From the IMG/VR virus record IMGVR_UViG_3300000117_000075, positions 1 through 38,687 of that record: a stretch of DNA of 38,687 nucleotides. The stretch is one strand, 5' to 3'. The position numbers and the translations under genes were made by a program. How positions within the stretch are numbered: position 1 is the stretch's first letter; every line of letters begins with the position of its first letter. Source of the DNA: a virus. The notes under the pieces were generated by a model. That model saw only the letters and a program-made list of their open reading frames with translations. It was not told where the DNA came from and did not search any database. This document shows, in pieces, positions 13,773-37,509 of this stretch.

Positions 13773-14657
13773 TTACCACCAATCATCAAAACTTGTTTGC
13801 ATTCTACCTGTTCGGATTGAATCTGTATTCCAACCCATAGCCCGATAGATAGGCTCTGCTTTTTTTATTATTACATTTCCGTAATATGCTAAGTCCGGCA
13901 CTACATCTTTAAAATCTTCAAGCGTAGTAGCCGAAAAATACTCGGCCGACTTTAATTCACCCGTCAATGGGTGAGTGAATGTGTCGCTTGCTCTTACCTT
14001 CATAAATAAATAAGAGTCATCGTATTCCATGTTGAGTTTTTCCCTTCCATATAGGACTCCTCCTACTCCTTCCCCGAAGGAAGGCTTCTTATTCTGCAAA
14101 GTAACGAAGTTTTCTTTCAAGACTCCGCATTTTTCGCAATAATCTATAGCATAGCACTCCTTTACTTCGTATTTCTTATTACAATCCGGACATTTTACAG
14201 AAAATCTCTCTACCTTAAGCCTACTTCGCTTAATTATATCCACTTTATCAAAATCGCTATTTATTATCTTAGTGTACTTTGCATTAAGCCACGAATTTAT
14301 TTCTTTGAAGGTGTGGTCGTTAAGCCACATCTCTAAAACCTTAATCTGAACGCCTTTAGCCAGTGGAGTTTCTGAAATCCTCTTCGCAGTGAAGCCAGTC
14401 ATAGTGAATTCCGGTTCTTCTAACTCATATCCGTCTTTCCATGAAATTAAACCGGCGTTTCTATTTTTAGTAGAGCCAACTCCCAACCTAGAGAAGTATT
14501 TCTCAAACTCTAAGGTCACTGGATGCTCTCCTAATCCTAGTAGGTTAGGGAAGGATTCTCTAACATGTAGATTAATTTCCTGTACTACTTCTTTTCCTCT
14601 TTCAATAGAATCCATTTTTACATAGATTGAATCAGTGTGTCCATATACTACTTTCAT
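13773..14657 (-). CDS. polB-C: DNA polymerase family B, C-terminal fragment (motif C, palm and thumb)
   Basis: 294 residues. It begins four residues before motif C, which reads 'YGHTDS' where the family has Y-x-D-T-D-S; the second, essential Asp is D9 but the first is His. The thumb region follows ('LEFEKYFSRLGVGSTKNR', 'GFTAKRISETPLAKGVQ'), with a four-cysteine cluster 'CPDC...CEKC' near residues 155-178. The extreme C-terminus 'QTSFDDWW' fits a PCNA-interacting box. The matching N-terminal part is encoded 2.5 kb upstream on the same strand; joined end to end they give one uninterrupted family B polymerase. The gene start ATG overlaps the stop of the 110-residue gene, and translation of the half appears independent. 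Confidence 0.88.
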   Translation of the reverse strand: MKVVYGHTDSIYVKMDSIERGKEVVQEINLHVRESFPNLLGLGEHPVTLEFEKYFSRLGVGSTKNRNAGLISWKDGYELEEPEFTMTGFTAKRISETPLAKGVQIKVLEMWLNDHTFKEINSWLNAKYTKIINSDFDKVDIIKRSRLKVERFSVKCPDCNKKYEVKECYAIDYCEKCGVLKENFVTLQNKKPSFGEGVGGVLYGREKLNMEYDDSYLFMKVRASDTFTHPLTGELKSAEYFSATTLEDFKDVVPDLAYYGNVIIKKAEPIYRAMGWNTDSIRTGRMQTSFDDWW

Positions 14658-16003: not shown

Positions 16004-16199
16004 CTTTAATCCTCCATTCTGTCTTACCTGCTCTTTCTATATTGTCCATCCTAGTAAGAATATATCCTATGCTTCTACTATTACCTGCGAACTTAGTTCC
16101 GTAAATTTCTATCATATGTACTCTCAGCATATGGGAAGTAAATGGCTGGGGCATATTGTGAACTTCAACTTCTATTCTATTTCTTAGAAATGTATTCAT
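15993..16199 (-). CDS. Unknown 68-residue protein
   Basis: Starts in ATGA with the zinc-ribbon gene. Contains 'VEVHNMPQPFTSHML' then 'SIGYILTRMDNIERAGKTEWRI', possibly a small alpha/beta domain. Its 'HNMPQP' resembles 'HNMAQP' in the unknown gene at 26666-27064, in both cases followed by a stretch ending 'SIGYL' or 'SIGYI'. Function not recognised. Confidence 0.5.
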   Translation of the reverse strand: MNTFLRNRIEVEVHNMPQPFTSHMLRVHMIEIYGTKFAGNSRSIGYILTRMDNIERAGKTEWRIKDGV

Positions 16200-16324
16200 A
16201 AATGAACCCCCTTCATAATTGGTTGAAAGTAATACCTGCTATTACAGGTATCGCAACGATAGCCACCCTTACTTAACCAATTGCCGTAGCCTTCTATTTC
16301 TTTTTCACATAGTTTACATTTCAT
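16196..16324 (-). CDS. Small zinc-ribbon protein, 42 residues
   Basis: Begins inside the downstream copy of the 19-base repeat that bounds the HNH gene (ATG at 16324 overlapping TGA). C3-x2-C6 and C24-x2-C27 form a zinc ribbon ('CKLC', 'CDTC'). Ends in ATGA with the next gene. Confidence 0.6.
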   Translation of the reverse strand: MKCKLCEKEIEGYGNWLSKGGYRCDTCNSRYYFQPIMKGVHL

Positions 16325-16339
16325 ACTTCCATCTCCTTT
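16321..16339. repeat. 19-base direct repeat, downstream copy bounding the HNH gene
   Basis: Identical to 16806-16824 (tcatacttccatctccttt on the plus strand), 485 bases apart. This copy contains the HNH stop codon and the start of the next gene. Confidence 0.85.
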
Positions 16340-16809
16340 ACCAAATCACTATTTAATTTCGCCCACATATCGAAGCAATGTACTTTATCTAAACTGTCTT
16401 CTTCAGGAAGAGTGTAGTTTTCATCAAACAAAACATAGGCTGCATTCTTTGCAGAACGGATAATTCTATCTAATATCAGAAAACGATTAAACGCATCTAA
16501 ACAATAAACGGCATTGTACGCCCCTTTTGAATAAAACTCTTTTTTTAGTTCGAGCCATATTTCATATTCTTTACCCCATAAGTTTTCGCTTTCAGCATGA
16601 CATGGCTTACATAATAAATGTATATTTTCTATTTCATTAGAACCATCGTGTTGTAGGGGCTGAATATGTGCGCCATCAACTATAACATCTTCGACTCCAC
16701 AAGCCATACAAGCATATCTTTCAACACCATAATGTTTAGCAATTTTATCTTTTGCTGGTTTATTGAATCCTTTTGAACATTTTTTATATCTATTATTATT
16801 ACTTGTCAT
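16321..16809 (-). CDS. HNH endonuclease (homing-type) between polymerase halves
   Basis: 162 residues. The HNH-treble clef is clear: C34-x2-C37 ('CMACG'), 'DGAHIQP' with H48, N62/H64, then C67-x2-C70-H71 ('LLCKPCHAE'). A basic N-terminus ('RYKKCSKGFNKPAK') may contact DNA and the C-terminal 80 residues are helical. Such enzymes nick or cut DNA at specific sites and often spread by homing. The gene starts and stops inside two identical 19-base repeats and lies at the break in DNA polymerase, a favourite homing target, so a homing or gene-splitting role is likely by inference. Confidence 0.85.
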   Translation of the reverse strand: MTSNNNRYKKCSKGFNKPAKDKIAKHYGVERYACMACGVEDVIVDGAHIQPLQHDGSNEIENIHLLCKPCHAESENLWGKEYEIWLELKKEFYSKGAYNAVYCLDAFNRFLILDRIIRSAKNAAYVLFDENYTLPEEDSLDKVHCFDMWAKLNSDLVKEMEV

Positions 16810-16824
16810 ACTTCCATCTCCTTT
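16806..16824. repeat. 19-base direct repeat, upstream copy bounding the HNH gene
   Basis: Identical to 16321-16339. Contains the stop of the membrane zinc-finger gene and the start of the HNH gene. A degenerate relative lies at the end of the polymerase N-terminal gene (17203-17227, sharing 13 bases, ttccatctccttt) and an 11-base piece at 15728-15738. Confidence 0.85.
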
Positions 16825-17210
16825 GGGTGTCGCATCATCATATGTATTTCCAATGCTTGGTGGCTAAAATAAGCCTCTTCGCATACTTTACAATAGATTC
16901 TTTCCTCTATTGATTTCTTAAGCATCCTTTCTTTTCGCTTATTGCTTTTTATTGCTAATATCTTATTACGAATGTTAGAGTCTATTTGAGAAGTCCCCCC
17001 AAAAGGCCATGTTTCCAAAGTAGCAAAGACTAGCCTTGATATTGGGAACTTTTCCTTTACAAAAGGATATAACAATAAATCAAAAGGCAGTAATACAACT
17101 AATGTCGCTATGACTAGTACCGCCATAAATATGTATATGGCGACATTAACCATAAGACCAAAAATAATAAGAAGTGCCGCAATAGCAAATAACCCTATAA
17201 TTACTTCCAT
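16806..17210 (-). CDS. Membrane protein with C-terminal C2H2 zinc finger
   Basis: 134 residues. Two hydrophobic helices occupy residues 3-45 ('IIGLFAIAALLIIFGLMV' and a second span to 'LLLYP'), then a basic linker, then a classical C2H2 finger near the end: C107-x2-C110-x12-H123-x5-H129 ('CKVCEEAYFSHQ' onward). Ends 'KEMEV', the same residues that end the HNH protein, because both stops lie in the repeated junction sequence. It starts one base after the stop of the polymerase N-terminal fragment. Could anchor DNA or the replisome to the membrane; that is speculation. Confidence 0.65.
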   Translation of the reverse strand: MEVIIGLFAIAALLIIFGLMVNVAIYIFMAVLVIATLVVLLPFDLLLYPFVKEKFPISRLVFATLETWPFGGTSQIDSNIRNKILAIKSNKRKERMLKKSIEERIYCKVCEEAYFSHQALEIHMMMRHPKEMEV

Positions 17211-17211
17211 C

Positions 17212-18933
17212 TTATTCCATCTCCTTTGCCTTAAACGCTGCTAATCTAATTGCTTCTCTTGCACTCGCTGTAATACTTTCTGCCAAAGTTACATTCGACC
17301 AACCGAATCCAGCAAAGGCGAGAATACCGTAGAAACTCGCAGATAATCTTTTTACTGCCATTTGGTTATTGTACCACTTAACATACTCAGAATCATTGTT
17401 CTGCCCTTTGGCTTCTTTCATCCTTGCCTTATATTCATTACGCAATTCTTTCAATTCTAAGACCGCAGTTGGTAATAATCCTAACTTATCGGTTTTGAAA
17501 TAAACCATGTCTTCTGCATCGCTTATGCTGAAGTCCTTCGGCGTAGCAAGATTCGCCCCGAATTCAGTGGGGGTATCGCTAATAGTTTCGAAAGAAATGT
17601 TGCGGGCCAATATCATTGAAGGATAGAGTCCAGCGAAATCAAATGCTGCCACGCCATGATGTAGGCCATTAGTCCCTTCACTTAGAGGGTCATAGACCAT
17701 AGCACCTTGGTAGGATAAACTTTCTTTACAGTTCTTACAAGTCTTTGCTTTCTTAAGATTGACTGTATTGCAATTAGAGCAGATTCTATTCTTTGGCCTA
17801 ATTCCAGTGGGGGCTTTCCATGTGGCATTCCTCATAAAATATATTCCTCCCATGTGGCTAGCATAGAAACATGCGTCGAAGGGCGCAACTAGTAATCTTT
17901 GTAGTGCAAGAATAGCCTCGCTACAATAATTAGTTTCGTCAATCTCTACCATTAGTTCTACATCTATCACTGCATATTTCAGATATGTTTGCGTATCTTC
18001 TAACCACCCTCTACGATAGAATTCATTTGCATCCGGAAACTTTTCCGAGACAAGTTTATTTCTACCCAATACATTTTCAGAAACATAGTTTAGACTTAGC
18101 GATGGTAGCGTTCCTCTTTGGGAATCATTCCATTGTCTCTCAAATGCCAAATCTAAATTTAGGCAAATCCTACCAGCAATGGGCTGGGAGATTGGAGAAT
18201 ATCCTTCCTCCGCTTTAGTAAATCTAAAGCCGGTCTTAGTAGCAAATACATTAGACACTCTTCCTACCGGAGATAGTTTTAGTGGATTAACTCTCAATGC
18301 ACAGCATCTATCAATAAGTTTAGGCAAATCGAACTTTAGACCAAACCATGCAATTAGCATATCGGGGTCTTTCTCTACCATTGTATTAATGAAAGATTCA
18401 AGCATTTCTCTTTCGGTATTAAAAATAAATCTAACTCCTGTATCAAAAACAGTATCTAATGGCGCATCAATAGGAAGCCATACCCATTGGTAATACTTCT
18501 CATCATAATTATCATACATTACAATAGTAGTAATTTCATCATGATGTTCTCCGCCCTGTTGCCATTCCATATCCCAATACCATTTACGCATTTTGTATTC
18601 CGGTATCTCTTTTAGATTATCTATGGCGTATCTATGGTGGTGTCTTACATCTGCTTCCCAAGTCTGAATAAACATATCCTTTGCATTTCTAACATCGTCT
18701 GCTTGCTCGACATATACTTTCTTTAGTTTAGTCCCTTCTAGAGAAAACCATTCTCCACTCTCATACTCAAATTCTCTCTTGACATATTTAGAAGGCCTGT
18801 AAAATCTAATTTCCCTATGGGAATCATCTACAAAAAAATATGGGCGATGGGTTTCCACCTTCCATTTCTTTTCTCCTTCTTCTCGCCAAGAGAGAAATAT
18901 ATTTTTATTATCTCTCATGGTGGATATAATCAT
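17212..18933 (-). CDS. polB-N: DNA polymerase family B, N-terminal fragment (exonuclease, motifs A and B)
   Basis: 573 residues from ATG 18933 (a TTG-initiated frame three codons longer also exists). Exonuclease motifs: Exo I 'WYWDMEWQ' (D121, E123), Exo II 'FGLKFDLP' (D202), Exo III 'YAVIDVEL' (Y320, D324). A four-cysteine zinc ribbon lies between exonuclease and palm (C385, C388, C399, C402). Motif A is 'DFAGLYPS' (D432) and motif B is 'KRLSASFYG' (K528), with Ala in place of the usual Asn. The protein stops 38 residues after motif B ('FKAKEME'), exactly before motif C, which is carried by the gene at 13773-14657. PCNA lies immediately upstream, overlapping slightly. The two products must associate to form an active enzyme, as known for the split PolB of Methanothermobacter. 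Confidence 0.9.
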   Translation of the reverse strand: MIISTMRDNKNIFLSWREEGEKKWKVETHRPYFFVDDSHREIRFYRPSKYVKREFEYESGEWFSLEGTKLKKVYVEQADDVRNAKDMFIQTWEADVRHHHRYAIDNLKEIPEYKMRKWYWDMEWQQGGEHHDEITTIVMYDNYDEKYYQWVWLPIDAPLDTVFDTGVRFIFNTEREMLESFINTMVEKDPDMLIAWFGLKFDLPKLIDRCCALRVNPLKLSPVGRVSNVFATKTGFRFTKAEEGYSPISQPIAGRICLNLDLAFERQWNDSQRGTLPSLSLNYVSENVLGRNKLVSEKFPDANEFYRRGWLEDTQTYLKYAVIDVELMVEIDETNYCSEAILALQRLLVAPFDACFYASHMGGIYFMRNATWKAPTGIRPKNRICSNCNTVNLKKAKTCKNCKESLSYQGAMVYDPLSEGTNGLHHGVAAFDFAGLYPSMILARNISFETISDTPTEFGANLATPKDFSISDAEDMVYFKTDKLGLLPTAVLELKELRNEYKARMKEAKGQNNDSEYVKWYNNQMAVKRLSASFYGILAFAGFGWSNVTLAESITASAREAIRLAAFKAKEME

Positions 18934-18938
18934 ATTAT

Positions 18939-19682
18939 TCAACTCACATGCGGGGCACGAATTAATCTTCTATCTTCTCCAACTAATAATAGTGGGAAGT
19001 CGTCTCTAAGGTAGACATTGATTTTACCATCAAAGAACTTGTGTAGAGGGCCAGACCATTCTACTACAGCCGCATCTCCACTGGCATTAGATATTGCCAT
19101 TGATTCTAGATAGCGATTAGAGGCAGATGTCTGACTGCTAATTACTGCTGCTTCTTCTGCGTAATCTAAACGATAGACTCCACTTTTAATTAATTCACAT
19201 AATCCCATTGTTTTCTTAAAGTCCTCGGAATGTATTGTGAATACTGCTTCGTATTTAGAAGGGCCGAACATAAACAATGTTTCCGGTTCTTCTTCATAAC
19301 TAACATGTTCTAGCATTCCCTTTATTCTAGTAATTGCATTCATATTAGAATGGGTAATGATTCTTGGGACTATTACCTGCTGGGAATTACAAGAAACCTG
19401 TAGGGTATCTTCTGCAACAAAACTACAGACTCCGCTAAACTTCTTTACGAAGGGAAGTAGATATTTTGCATCGAAGATAAAATCACCATCCTCTTCTCCA
19501 TCCACTTCTAAATTAATATTTAGAGATAGAGTAGAGTCGGCATTCCATAGTTCTAGCAAGTTACCTTCTAGAGAAATGTAGATAGTATTATCCAAACTGC
19601 TGTTTGTTACTCCGTACTTACCCTTTCCTTGAATGTCGTCTAATGCTCTTTCTAGTATTTTATTATCAATGTTAAATTTCAT
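18939..19682 (-). CDS. pcn: PCNA-like sliding clamp
   Basis: 247 residues, the usual PCNA length. The N-terminus 'LERALDDIQGKGKYGVTNS' and 'NLLELWNADSTLSLNINL' match the first clamp domain, and the C-terminus 'VYLRDDFPLLL' (about 222-233) then 'RLIRAPHVS' corresponds to the PCNA end of type DFPLKL...YLLAPRIE. It encircles DNA and tethers polymerase, ligase and nucleases. Overlaps the RecA-like gene by four bases and precedes polymerase. C-terminal PIP-like boxes are found on the polymerase fragment and a micro-ORF. Confidence 0.82.
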   Translation of the reverse strand: MKFNIDNKILERALDDIQGKGKYGVTNSSLDNTIYISLEGNLLELWNADSTLSLNINLEVDGEEDGDFIFDAKYLLPFVKKFSGVCSFVAEDTLQVSCNSQQVIVPRIITHSNMNAITRIKGMLEHVSYEEEPETLFMFGPSKYEAVFTIHSEDFKKTMGLCELIKSGVYRLDYAEEAAVISSQTSASNRYLESMAISNASGDAAVVEWSGPLHKFFDGKINVYLRDDFPLLLVGEDRRLIRAPHVS

Positions 19683-22100: not shown

Positions 22101-23012
22101 TCATATTAATTGTCCTACCATCCATGAGAGTAAAACTCTCGGTGTCATAGTAGTAGACCGGTATTCACTTTCTCCTATCACTCTCAAAAATTTGTATTTT
22201 ACATTTCCATCTAAAGTAGCATTGATAATAACATCATGCAAAGAAACACAAATATCCTTGACGGTTTTACCGTCGTATAGTAAGTTGTGTAGTGTTGTAA
22301 GAATGTCAGTATTTTTATTGATAAGTTCATTAATTATATTTTCATATTCCTGTAGTCCTTCTTGGACTTGTACCTTCAGTGGTTTGTCAGATGCAATTGC
22401 CGCCTGTAACTCGGTGATTGCTCTCCTTAAGTCACCTCCATAAACACCTATAAAGCCCTGCATCTCGGACTCGGTTGGCCTGTTAGGTATGTTCTCCTTG
22501 TCCAAAATGTCCATTAAAATTGAACCGACTACTGCCGGTACAAGAGGCTTGAAGTGATAGTTTGCACACCTACTTTGTAGTGCGAATATAATTTTAGTTC
22601 TATCATTACAAGTAATAATAAATCTAACATTGTCTGAATATCTTTCCATAATTCTTTTCAATGCGTTTTGTGCATCGTTGGTCATTCCATCCATTTCATC
22701 TAATAGAATTATTCTGAATGGAACATTACCAAGTTTACCGCTTTGGGCAATCTCTTTGATTTTAGTTCTAACAGTTTCTAATCTTCTATCGTCAGAAGCA
22801 TTAATCTCAAAGAAATTATCTAGTGCATTTTCACCAAGTAATGTTTTTGCTAGGGCTAAACCTGCCGCAGTTTTACCTGTACCGGAAGTACCGTAAAACA
22901 AAACATTTGGCATGTTCTGTAATTCTACCCAATTCTCCGCATCCATTACGAAGTGTTCCTGTCCTTTTATTCCGCTTAGTAAAGCGGGCCTATATTTCTC
23001 AGTCCATAGCAT
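22101..23012 (-). CDS. rfcS: Clamp loader small subunit (RFC-S)
   Basis: 303 residues. Starts 'MLWTEKYRP' as archaeal RFC small subunits do. Walker A 'GTSGTGKT' (41-48), Walker B 'LLDEMD' (D105, E106), sensor 1 'IITCND', and the clamp-loader 'SRC' motif (147-149) are all present; 'GGDLRRAI' is the sensor 2 region. A C-terminal helical collar follows. It opens PCNA and loads it on primed DNA using ATP. No clear large subunit is in the window, though a second P-loop ATPase lies one gene upstream. Confidence 0.93.
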   Translation of the reverse strand: MLWTEKYRPALLSGIKGQEHFVMDAENWVELQNMPNVLFYGTSGTGKTAAGLALAKTLLGENALDNFFEINASDDRRLETVRTKIKEIAQSGKLGNVPFRIILLDEMDGMTNDAQNALKRIMERYSDNVRFIITCNDRTKIIFALQSRCANYHFKPLVPAVVGSILMDILDKENIPNRPTESEMQGFIGVYGGDLRRAITELQAAIASDKPLKVQVQEGLQEYENIINELINKNTDILTTLHNLLYDGKTVKDICVSLHDVIINATLDGNVKYKFLRVIGESEYRSTTMTPRVLLSWMVGQLI

Positions 23013-23412
23013 CGTTCATCATTACTCCGTCTTTTACATTTACATTTCTTATTACAACACTAGGTTGCTGCTGTTCCCTAAACACAGGAACTTCTTTTAT
23101 TACTTCTATTTCCCTAAGCACTTCGACTTCTTTTATTACTTCAACTTCTCTTACATCGGCTCTCATTTGAGCATACCAAAACTGAGGATAGTAGAACATA
23201 TAATAGATTAAAGGAAATCCTGTCGTGTGAGTTATCAATGTTAGCCAGAATAATAATTCTGTAAAGTCTCCATCATGATACCCGTTATTCATTTCTATTA
23301 CTAATACAATATAGAATAGAAATATCCAAAGGTTTATCACAAAAAATCCTGCTAAAGACCTCATTCTTATTTTATCAATATCAATCGTTTTTCTTTCCAC
23401 GCATTCCTTCAT
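22999..23412 (-). CDS. Membrane protein with repeated Val/Glu coiled tail
   Basis: 137 residues from ATG 23412 (GTGAT seven bases upstream; ATG 23415 also possible). Two hydrophobic helices ('SLAGFFVINLWIFLFYIVLV' and 'LLFWLTLITHTTGFPLIYYM') are followed by a short repeat of the form (V/L)(R/K)E(V/I)EV, four times in residues 83-107, then a Gln-rich segment. The tail is likely an amphipathic strand or coil for oligomers. It lies between two ATPase genes of the replication block and overlaps both; perhaps a membrane anchor of the replisome, which is speculation. Confidence 0.6.
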   Translation of the reverse strand: MKECVERKTIDIDKIRMRSLAGFFVINLWIFLFYIVLVIEMNNGYHDGDFTELLFWLTLITHTTGFPLIYYMFYYPQFWYAQMRADVREVEVIKEVEVLREIEVIKEVPVFREQQQPSVVIRNVNVKDGVMMNDAMD

Positions 23413-24256
23413 CATAATAATCACTTAACTTACTTATTTTTATTTTAGGTTTAGATTTTCTTATCTTCTTTTCACCAAGACCGAGTAATCTACACTCACT
23501 ATTGTTTAGTTTGGTTTTAGCCCAACGGCTAAAGTCTTCATCTTTACATAATTGGCGAAGAAGTCTTTCGTCTCCGCTTCTTAGTTTTAACCTTCTACAT
23601 AGAGAAGGTATTTTGGAATATGCTTTGCGTTTAGGAAATGCTGGCCTACTGTAATTCTTACCTATGTAAGCATATGCTAACACTTCGTAAAAGTAGTTCA
23701 GTGGCCACTTTCTCTTAACGACTCCATCTGCGAATATCAATCTATTCGGGTGGATGTTTTCTACAAGCCAAGACATAATCTGCGTGTCTGCTGGCCTGTT
23801 AATTTTTAATAACTTAGCAACTAAGTTCCTATCACTTTGCTTCATGTATTCCATTACTAAAGAGAATGTATCTCTTTCCAATGAAAGGGGTTCTTCGCAT
23901 CTAGGTGCTAGTTCCTTAATCTGTTCTCTTAGGTATTGTTTGTTTCCTGCTCTCTTGAACTTAACCTTATTCTTAATATCAGCAGGAATACTTTTTTGAT
24001 TCAACGAAGTCATTACCACTTTACCGCCATAGTTTCTAAGAACATTTAGTATCTCGTCTTTCTTCGGCTTGTAGTGTATGTCTTCTATTATTATTCCTCT
24101 TTCCTTCGGTAGCGATTTAATATCAAGTATTTCCATATCATTAGCGTAGTAGATAATAGCATCTTCAAACATCTCCTTTGCCATAGTAGACTTACCGCTT
24201 CCATTCTTTCCGGTAATTACTATAGTTCTATCTTTATTCATATTGGTTAGTCCCAT
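23381..24256 (-). CDS. P-loop ATPase, possible clamp-loader partner
   Basis: 291 residues. Walker A 'GKNGSGKS' (16-23), Walker B-like 'GIIIEDI' (54-60) and a sensor 1-like strand 'VVMTSLNQ' (80-87) make a compact ATPase core of about 130 residues. The rest is helical and basic, ending in a Lys/Arg-rich tail. Clamp loaders pair a canonical small subunit with a divergent large one; the position next to RFC-S and the helical C-terminus would suit that, but no RFC-L box is recognised. Could also be an unrelated AAA+ or kinase-like ATPase. Confidence 0.55.
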   Translation of the reverse strand: MGLTNMNKDRTIVITGKNGSGKSTMAKEMFEDAIIYYANDMEILDIKSLPKERGIIIEDIHYKPKKDEILNVLRNYGGKVVMTSLNQKSIPADIKNKVKFKRAGNKQYLREQIKELAPRCEEPLSLERDTFSLVMEYMKQSDRNLVAKLLKINRPADTQIMSWLVENIHPNRLIFADGVVKRKWPLNYFYEVLAYAYIGKNYSRPAFPKRKAYSKIPSLCRRLKLRSGDERLLRQLCKDEDFSRWAKTKLNNSECRLLGLGEKKIRKSKPKIKISKLSDYYDEGMRGKKND

Positions 24257-27669: not shown

Positions 27670-27779
27670 TTTTCTCTCCTCTGAACCGACATAGTACCGT
27701 CTTTGTTTTTAGTTAGAATGGTCATAGAGCCATCTGTATAAACAATAGTCATTCTTTCGATTGTTTTGTCATCGAACAT
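27666..27779 (-). CDS. Micro-protein, 37 residues
   Basis: ATG in TAATG with the upstream gene, stop in ATGA with the downstream gene. A beta-hairpin-like sequence 'ERMTIVYTDGSMTILTKN'. Only the coupled start and stop support it. Confidence 0.45.
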   Translation of the reverse strand: MFDDKTIERMTIVYTDGSMTILTKNKDGTMSVQRREK

Positions 27780-27934
27780 TAGTCTTCCTCCTTAAATAAA
27801 AGGACACCGTGTTCCATGCAATATCCACCTTCAATCATTTTTTTTACCCAAGTCGGTTGTTCTCCGATTGTTATCAAACTGTTCTTAAGTATTTTTTTCT
27901 TACATCCTTCGTATTTACATTTAGCCCATTCCAT
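27779..27934 (-). CDS. Small zinc-finger-like protein, 51 residues
   Basis: ATG 27934 follows GGAGGAATAAAT at the end of groEL. C6-x4-C11 and C39-x2-H42 give a CCCH-type zinc site ('CKYEGC', 'CMEH') around 'TIGEQPTWVKKMIEGG'. The arrangement resembles short zinc-binding phage proteins that cap a helix. Function unknown. Confidence 0.55.
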   Translation of the reverse strand: MEWAKCKYEGCKKKILKNSLITIGEQPTWVKKMIEGGYCMEHGVLLFKEED

Positions 27935-36106: not shown

Positions 36107-36382
36107 TTAATCCCTCATTAAATTCCATATCTCTTCTATATCTTTGTGCATTAATGCACCTTCTTTATTTTCAATTACCGTCCTAACTAATACACCGCTA
36201 ATAGTAGTGAGTAGTTCCTCACTAGGTTCACTAATAAGTATTTTAGTAATCTTCTCTTGCATTTCTATTGCGTACATTTCTTCAGAAAGGCAATCCCAAC
36301 AATCGTCATAAACAAATCTCTCTGTCGCATGGCAAAAGGTTTTGATAAAGTTGTTACCTTTACATTCTCTACATTCAATCAT
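36107..36382 (-). CDS. Small zinc-ribbon protein, 91 residues
   Basis: C4-x2-C7 ('CRECKGN') and C28-x2-C31 ('CWDC') with C17-H18 between give a zinc ribbon; the last 50 residues are helical ('EEMYAIEMQEKITKILI'). Its ATG lies in the second copy of the 21-base direct repeat that bounds the next gene upstream. Confidence 0.6.
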   Translation of the reverse strand: MIECRECKGNNFIKTFCHATERFVYDDCWDCLSEEMYAIEMQEKITKILISEPSEELLTTISGVLVRTVIENKEGALMHKDIEEIWNLMRD

Positions 36383-36394
36383 TCAATCATCTCC
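36374..36394. repeat. 21-base direct repeat, downstream copy
   Basis: Perfect copy of 36514-36534 at a distance of 140 bases; on the minus strand it starts GGAGATGATTGAATGATTGA and contains ribosome site, stop and start of adjacent genes. Confidence 0.85.
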
Positions 36395-36522
36395 TTATCC
36401 ATTAAATAGCAATCTGTTTTACAAGTAGGACAACCTTTCCCAATACCATCCCCATCTTCAAACATCACTAAATCTTCTTCTTCTCCTTGCCAGCCGCATT
36501 TATTACAAGTTACTTCAATCAT
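36379..36522 (-). CDS. Small zinc-ribbon protein, 47 residues
   Basis: C6-x2-C9 ('CNKCGW') and C31-x2-C34 ('CPTC') with C38. Both the start (ATG 36522 overlapping TGA) and the stop lie in the 21-base repeats at 36374-36394 and 36514-36534, so the gene reads as a cassette. It ends 'EMIE', the same as the gene before it, for that reason. Confidence 0.62.
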   Translation of the reverse strand: MIEVTCNKCGWQGEEEDLVMFEDGDGIGKGCPTCKTDCYLMDKEMIE

Positions 36523-36534
36523 TCAATCATCTCC
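36514..36534. repeat. 21-base direct repeat, upstream copy
   Basis: Perfect copy of 36374-36394. Holds the end of the gene at 36519-37160 and the start of the 47-residue zinc-ribbon gene. Confidence 0.85.
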
Positions 36535-37160
36535 GTATTAGTACCAAATATTTCATTACTCTTTTTTATTTCAGAATTTCTCATATTCTTGTAGTGGTCT
36601 GCTGGCCACCAAGGAGGAGCCCTGCCATTTTTCCAAGTTGCAAATTTCCATTTACCTTGTAAATAATAGTGTCTATAACTTTCTATAACAAAGTTCCATG
36701 TATTCTCTTGGGGACTTAATCGGTAATAGTCATCCATAGCAATTGTTACCGGAGTTAATTCTTTACAAGTAAAATCGTGACTTCTAAGCAACTTACCGTA
36801 ATCGACAACATCAAGAATCCTATCATAAGAACCATGCCTTTTACCATATCTAAAAGTAAATTCTTCGCAAAGGGCCTTACCATGTGCTAGTAGCCAATTG
36901 AAATTATCTAAAGACTTCCTTGCCCAAATGGTACTAGGATGATTTAACATAGCCGGTTTCATTAGTCTAGAATTAATCATTTTATGATATATCTTTAGTT
37001 CCGCCAATGATGGTTCATAGCGACATTCAGAAATAAACCTCATGTAGAGTATATTAGTATGTAGCATTTGACATGTTTCAGTCGGCATTTTTACTACATG
37101 CTTGTCTAGCATTTCTTGTGCTGATTCTCTTGGGCATTCTGATAGTGCAAATATATTCAT
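36519..37160 (-). CDS. Conserved marine-phage protein, 213 residues (possible DNA glycosylase-like)
   Basis: Start at ATG 37160 with AGGTGAATAAA upstream. It opens 'MNIFALSECP' and has 'DKHVVKMPTETCQML', 'HPSTIWARKSLDNFNWLL' and 'FTFRYGKRHGSYD'. I recall this set of motifs (MNIF..., CDKHVVKM...E.AQ.L, HP...W...S..NY.WL) in many marine phage proteins, sometimes linked to pyrimidine-dimer glycosylase-type folds; the biochemical role is uncertain. Ends 'PPWWPADHYK' and an acidic tail. Confidence 0.6.
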   Translation of the reverse strand: MNIFALSECPRESAQEMLDKHVVKMPTETCQMLHTNILYMRFISECRYEPSLAELKIYHKMINSRLMKPAMLNHPSTIWARKSLDNFNWLLAHGKALCEEFTFRYGKRHGSYDRILDVVDYGKLLRSHDFTCKELTPVTIAMDDYYRLSPQENTWNFVIESYRHYYLQGKWKFATWKNGRAPPWWPADHYKNMRNSEIKKSNEIFGTNTEMIE

Positions 37161-37161
37161 T

Positions 37162-37509
37162 TTATTCACCTTTTAAATTATTAAATTCTGGGAAATGCTT
37201 GTCAATTAAGTAAGCACAAGCATCCCAAACTTCTAGTTGGTCTTTGTAGTATTCTACACACTGCTCTCTAGATTGTGGCTGATGTTCAAAATAACCATAA
37301 TAGGAAAGGTATTTTGCCGCCATAGTTAATTGTGATTTGGTTTTACCTTTGTTTAGATTATGGATGTAAGGTATTCCTCTCCATCCTATCTTTTCTACTA
37401 GAGAAGAAATTGCTTCGTCTCTACCCATAATAATCGGAGCAACATTTACCTTCATGGCAATGATACCGCTTCTTCTTAGACTAGGTACAAATTCTTTTCC
37501 AAAACTCAT
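37162..37509 (-). CDS. Unknown 115-residue protein
   Basis: Coupled by ATGA to the gene before. Basic and helical: 'RDEAISSLVEKIGWRGIPY', 'LTMAAKYLSYYGYFE', 'WDACAYLIDKHFPEF'. No family recognised. Confidence 0.55.
   Translation of the reverse strand: MSFGKEFVPSLRRSGIIAMKVNVAPIIMGRDEAISSLVEKIGWRGIPYIHNLNKGKTKSQLTMAAKYLSYYGYFEHQPQSREQCVEYYKDQLEVWDACAYLIDKHFPEFNNLKGE

Follow-up and report, generated by a model that had tools for sequence, protein, structure and literature searches.

The window (the whole stretch of DNA that was analysed, 38,687 nucleotides, positions 1 to 38,687 of IMG/VR record IMGVR_UViG_3300000117_000075) carries three genes in succession on its minus strand, encoding proteins of 216, 47 and 91 aa in that order, and a repeated sequence at the two junctions between them:

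36519 to 37169, minus strand: upstream gene, 216 aa, of the Pyr_excise / phrog_624 family (PF03013, E 7e-8; phrog_624, E 4e-50)
36514 to 36534, minus strand: repeat copy 1, at the upstream junction, where a ribosome-binding site, the stop codon ending the 216-aa gene and the start codon of the 47-aa gene come together; in the relative G2 (IMGVR_UViG_3300046167_000451), which is empty, it directly adjoins the left flank
36379 to 36522, minus strand: inserted 47-aa Cys-rich gene (ORF, MIEVTCNKCGW..KEMIE*), missing from G2 and from the relative G3 (IMGVR_UViG_3300030202_002193); a 91% identical gene lies in L011 (IMGVR_UViG_3300030116_006501)
36374 to 36394, minus strand: repeat copy 2, at the downstream junction, where the 47-aa gene ends and the 91-aa gene begins; the L011 gene has the same tail, GATAAGGAGATGATTGAATGA
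36107 to 36382, minus strand: downstream gene, 91 aa (MIECRECKG..), directly adjoining the 216-aa gene in G2, G3 and L312

The repeat, GGAGATGATTGAATGATTGAA on the minus strand, is present in two exact copies whose starts lie 140 bases apart, and the match extends to 25 bases at 96% identity. The initial annotation had described a perfect 21-base repeat bounding the gene, and the repeat is indeed exact at both borders. No further copy of the 21-mer was found in the whole window record, and the expectation from shuffled sequence was 0.01 matches with up to three mismatches allowed. On the minus strand each copy reads GGAG, then ATT GAA TGA (the last codons of the upstream gene) and ATG ATT GAA (the beginning of the next gene). 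The 216-aa protein ends ..EMIE*, the 47-aa protein begins MIE and ends ..KEMIE*, and the 91-aa protein begins MIE. That the ribosome site, stop and start are inside each copy, as had been claimed, could thus be read directly from both copies and the ORF ends. By sequence, AAGGAGATGATTGAATGA contains a stop codon in all three frames.

The 47-aa protein has the CxxC pairs C6/C9 and C31/C34, plus C38, and both pairs are kept in both homologues, so that two CxxC knuckles are present. Because of these cysteines the earlier label of a zinc ribbon is a reasonable one for the predicted protein. Pfam and PHROG profiles gave weak matches only, none clear and none to a nuclease family, and the AlphaFold model was mediocre (pLDDT 74.7), with rubredoxin-like folds matched at E about 1, none significant. 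A tblastn search of isolate phages with the 47-aa protein gave no match. The 47-aa and 91-aa proteins both begin MIE and both have an early CxxC, as would be expected if a neighbouring Cys-rich gene had been duplicated in tandem and had then diverged. However, tblastn of the 47-aa protein in the window matched only itself and not the 91-aa gene, and the 47-aa gene exists elsewhere, in L011, with its own flank. Paralogy with the 91-aa neighbour was rejected for lack of a sequence match, and we regard an origin by tandem duplication as highly improbable.

The window encodes a family B DNA polymerase (DNA_pol_B) split in two genes (13773-14657 and 17212-18942, minus strand), an RFC-like AAA/Rep_fac_C protein, a Cpn60_TCP1 thermosome, an ATP-dependent DNA ligase, an ERCC4 nuclease and a TFIIB-type zinc ribbon, along with a weak tail-fibre match. 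Archaeal-type replication genes together with a chaperonin, the combination of magroviruses and the tailed viruses of Poseidoniales, are therefore both present. This gene content points to a magrovirus-like archaeal tailed virus, and the host of these marine viruses is probably archaeal. Close relatives of the window were found only in IMG/VR. One of them, G1 (IMGVR_UViG_3300000115_000195), carries the 47-aa gene; its identity to the window is 99.99% across 18.9 kb, so the two count as one witness and not as independent ones. G2 is 91-97% identical to the window along the aligned blocks, mostly 94-97%. Elsewhere in the window, positions 23074-23145 hold two adjoining 36-base copies, 81% alike, within a 141-aa gene (22999-23424) that is missing from G2 and G3. 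Further single-gene differences from G2 lie at gene borders at 27779-27934, 12711 and 37160, where the end matches are short.

The initial annotation had suggested looking for strains lacking the unit, and such strains exist. G2 is an exact empty site, with the left flank, one repeat copy and the right flank (..ACTAATACGGAGATGATTGAATGATTGAATGTAGAG..) and the 140-base unit gone; the join shows one mismatch across 71 bases between the window and G2. The more distant relative G3 is also empty at the junction, with GGAGATGATTAAATGATTGAATG, and L312 is empty with the 216-aa and 91-aa genes directly adjacent and a different overlap (a diverged junction). The 216-aa gene probably had the 91-aa gene as its original neighbour. 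At the same junction L017 (IMGVR_UViG_3300025151_000059) has an unrelated 63-residue gene, MIDTDKYEG..LLEVIE*, between 15-base repeats of TGATTGAATGATTGA. In the tree of the 216-aa protein the window and G1 group with G2 (100/99) and L017 groups with G3 (94/97); the deeper forks are poorly resolved. Since each pair consists of one filled and one empty member and the inserts are different, the alleles are most simply read as two separate gains at one junction. The junction 3' of the 216-aa gene is a turnover hotspot, with a different next gene in most relatives. We weighed against this the possibility that the 47-aa gene was there from the start and that G2 and G3 lost it by deletion between the repeats, an event that would yield exactly the G2 sequence. 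With G2, G3 and L312 empty and another insert in L017, that history would need several independent losses and another gain, and the homologue search found no other relative with the 47-aa gene at the 216-aa/91-aa junction; we hold it to be distinctly unlikely.

A donor-like copy allowed the two joins to be compared. L011, a distant virus, encodes the 91% identical 47-aa protein in an unrelated context, with a MIDTDKYE gene on one side and an RFC gene on the other. The end of the L011 gene, ATTTAATGGATAAGGAGATGATTGAATGA, matches the window through the tail, with the same GATAAGGAGATGATTGAATGA followed by the RFC gene; its start reads GGAGGAAATTGAATGAACGAAGTGAC, as against GGAGATGATTGAATGATTGAAGTAAC in the window. 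The tail being common to both copies and the start being different, the tail would belong to the 47-aa gene itself, and codon 2 at the left join would be that of the resident junction. With codon 2 excluded, the two genes differ by four silent and three replacement changes, too few to prove selection. On the left-hand side L011 matches the resident junction over a short stretch, ATTGAATGA, or over no more than GAA should L011 be the actual donor. From this comparison the right-hand repeat probably arrived with the gene and the left-hand repeat was resident. Our main reading, to which we give a probability of about 0.72, is that recombination between junctions brought in the 47-aa gene, with the resident junction on the left and the gene-borne tail on the right.

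The initial annotation had named a second gene, an HNH gene, as having the same geometry:

16321 to 16809, minus strand: HNH gene, 162 aa, between copies of AAAGGAGATGGAAGTATGA, with 19 exact bases at both junctions (PF01844, E 1.5e-7)
16806 to 16824, minus strand: repeat copy at the HNH gene start, exact 19 bases
16321 to 16339, minus strand: repeat copy at the HNH gene end, exact 19 bases

The repeats bear out the geometry, but G2 lacks the HNH gene only as part of a three-gene block (16199-17218), together with its 134-aa and 42-aa neighbours. For this reason the HNH gene fits the pattern without being a clean single-gene event and is a weaker example.

Endonucleases raise the question of target-site duplication, in which a staggered cut (for example by a homing-type HNH enzyme acting in trans) would be followed by insertion and by repair that copies the 21 bases. 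The repeats are direct, the insertion is precise, and HNH and other endonuclease-like genes are found at the other hot junction, behind PolB. Against it, repeats at the various sites range from 10 to 27 bases and their sequence differs by site, where a transposon-like duplication would have a constant length, and the right-hand tail is already on the gene in the unrelated virus L011, so the right copy was probably not made by duplication. On these two grounds a fixed target-site duplication was rejected, and we consider duplication of the target unlikely overall. The L011 gene already having the tail argues for homology-assisted insertion at a translation junction. Between the two processes first suggested, duplication or recombination, the comparison thus favors recombination with a gene that carries a matching tail.

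Ribosome-site and ATGA composition might by itself make junctions alike, and we aligned RBS-ATGA junctions and recorded how long their exact matches are at most. The window has 210 such junction pairs, and the two with the longest repeats, of 21 and 19 bases, both bracket single genes. For the relatives we used an unbiased set of loci, chosen only by RFC, PolB or 390-aa homology and not by junction motif, and took non-adjacent RBS-[AG]TGA junction pairs for comparison. Repeats of at least 12 bases were found at 13 of 235 single-gene brackets and 32 of 3424 non-adjacent pairs (p 2.6e-6), those of at least 15 at 9 and 8, respectively (p 2.5e-7), and those of at least 18 at 5 and 1. The enrichment persisted when homologous junctions were collapsed (9/179 against 6/2886 at 15 bases or more). 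Pooled enrichment over all loci is biased, many loci having been picked by the motif, and our claim rests on the unbiased set only. In control regions of T4, P-SSM2, HGTV-1 and KVP40, none of 30 gene brackets had a repeat of 10 bases or more, a number too small to call the effect special to this group. Long repeats also went with gene presence and absence: an empty allele was found in a relative for 4 of 7 testable brackets with repeats of at least 12 bases and for 20 of 165 with shorter ones (p 0.008).

These counts bear on convergence, in which selection on the ribosome site and ATGA coupling would make junctions alike without recombination. GGAG..ATGA is common to most junctions, and distant junctions can be alike, as at two gene starts of the window 15 kb apart (14657 and 29839), which have 18 exact junction bases in common. 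The likeness is nevertheless concentrated at single-gene brackets and tracks the presence of the bracketed gene, and we judge convergence improbable. Because of the enrichment at single-gene brackets, shared composition does not explain the repeats; chance and shared composition were rejected on the shuffles and the junction-pair statistics. The initial annotation's own refuting test therefore left its proposal standing, and the bracketing repeats of 12 bases or more that it had asked for in related genomes are enriched.

We then considered recombination between junctions as a general route. Joining the flanks of the filled allele gave the empty allele with 0-2 mismatches in window/G2, L084/L081, L099/L177, L136/L146, L133/L105, L147/L149, L169/L165, L030/G2 and L062/L060; in the pairs other than window/G2 the exact repeats are 10-18 bases long. 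L201/L205, an independent pair of a different lineage, shows a 22-base junction, AAGGAGATGATTGAATGATTGA, around a 66-aa gene. Two junctions are hot, the one 3' of the 216-aa gene and the one 3' of the N-terminal PolB piece, which is followed by 79 different genes in the set. At the latter border the next gene is different in most relatives, and several of these genes are endonuclease-like. The insert of L036 ends with the same 24 bases as PolB. However, among 114 distinct gene-scale indels in 158 loci, boundary repeats reached at least 12 bases in 10 and at least 15 in 6, and were shorter than 12 in 104. The general way of gaining genes at ATGA junctions that was first proposed is supported within this limit: gain at a junction repeat is a recurrent route and not the usual one. 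A second junction type was also seen near the 216-aa homologue in L216, L218, L232 and L249, where consecutive unrelated genes have a common VEVTA* tail (GGCGTGGAGGTGACGGCGTGA). In a group that is more divergent, VEVTA* closes both the homologue of the 216-aa gene and several of the genes that follow it.

The L017 insert at the window-type junction is a MIDTDKYE gene, and its start is widespread. The sequence GAGATGATTGAATGATTGA occurs in 28 IMG/VR stretches, mostly followed by CACAGACAAATACGAA, and an RFC relative (34-93% identity) is present in 23 of the 27 records tested (the GAGATGATTGAATGATTGA set plus L011, L017 and L019). With any codon allowed, a MIDTDKYE start was found in at least 120 stretches of viral DNA, where it precedes many different bodies, often in arrays, in loci of 33-55% G+C. 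Codon choice within it is nearly fixed: in 165 distinct copies, which are related and not independent, ACA is used in 164, TAC in 160 and GAA in 156, against 36, 54 and 60% usage in the same loci. The best match of the 40-base adaptor in isolate phages had an E of 0.6. In the series L184-L315 (e.g. L274, L193, L191, L185), small-gene arrays have starts (MIDTDKYEGH) that are nearly identical in DNA and bodies that differ. L315 (NZMJ01000078.1, a 'Maricaulis' MAG, 9.3 kb) has four MIDTDKYE starts within 1.7 kb and is probably a mis-binned virus contig. We tentatively raise the possibility, doubtful as it is, that these viruses have in common a standard DNA adaptor at gene borders for the shuffling of single genes, which recombination might maintain or a viral enzyme might recognise, and by which small genes would be exchanged as coupled units. 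A conserved regulatory role would also explain the fixed codons.

Gain by recombination between junctions could have proceeded as follows. Genes in these archaeal-type viruses are packed in such a way that the ribosome site, stop and start needed for one gene lie within the closing codons of the gene before it. An incoming gene with the tail GGAGATGATTGAATGA would pair with the resident GGAGATGATTGAATGATTGAA between the 216-aa and 91-aa genes, and short-homology recombination would join it at the resident junction. The repeat pair would then consist of the resident junction (left) and the tail brought by the gene (right). Because the newcomer has a copy of the junction, where one gene ends and another begins, on either side, both neighbours would stay intact, and the new gene would be translationally coupled at once. 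The empty, filled and differently filled alleles, the same tail on the L011 gene and the enrichment of repeats around single genes are observed; we infer the direction of transfer, the functional coupling and the enzyme used, for which a viral exonuclease-like gene (PDDEXK) is a candidate only.

Several known systems resemble this arrangement in part. Our searches of the literature on gene cassettes and on Poseidoniales found nothing relevant, and a text search of a magrovirus survey found no mention of repeats, overlaps or cassettes. To our knowledge, boundary sequences are usually absent from mosaic borders. For the short conserved boundary sequences of mosaic phages, homologous recombination at module borders has been proposed, as cited in PMC3029335. 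Short homology at a gene border serves a module swap in those phages, as it would here; in our case, however, the border lies within coding sequence, at the overlap of ribosome site, stop and start, only one gene makes up the module, the repeat persists on both sides, and an empty allele is available for comparison. The Start Associated Sequences (SAS/ESAS) of cluster K mycobacteriophages and cluster EF Microbacterium phages are likewise a well-conserved motif at the ribosome-site position, repeated before many unrelated small genes and sometimes holding the upstream stop codon (PMC3203893, PMC7302621). SAS is one asymmetric 13-base motif used genome-wide, with a proposed role in translation initiation (PMC3203893, PMC7302621), whereas the repeat here is junction-local, varies between junctions, takes in the start codon and surrounds genes that some relatives have and others lack; in the window the 21-mer is found at the two ends of one gene and not at many starts. 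Homing endonuclease genes at phage gene borders (PMC10448857, PMC2993671) also show precise single-gene gain at a fixed border, as with HNH behind PolB here. The HNH gene does match a nuclease family, but neither the 47-aa nor the 63-residue insert is recognisable as an endonuclease gene, and it is the junction itself, not long flanks, that provides the homology. Integron gene cassettes depend on an integrase and attC/attI sites, whereas the repeat here holds the ribosome-binding site, stop and start.

It has long been asked how phages and archaeal viruses acquire single genes while their densely packed operons stay unbroken. With empty, filled and differently filled alleles and a donor-like copy in hand, the join can be read base by base at this junction. 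The junction that secures translation would also supply the homology; this would account for the ability of new small genes to be expressed on arrival. If the adaptor reading is true, small genes would be interchangeable among these viruses as coupled units.
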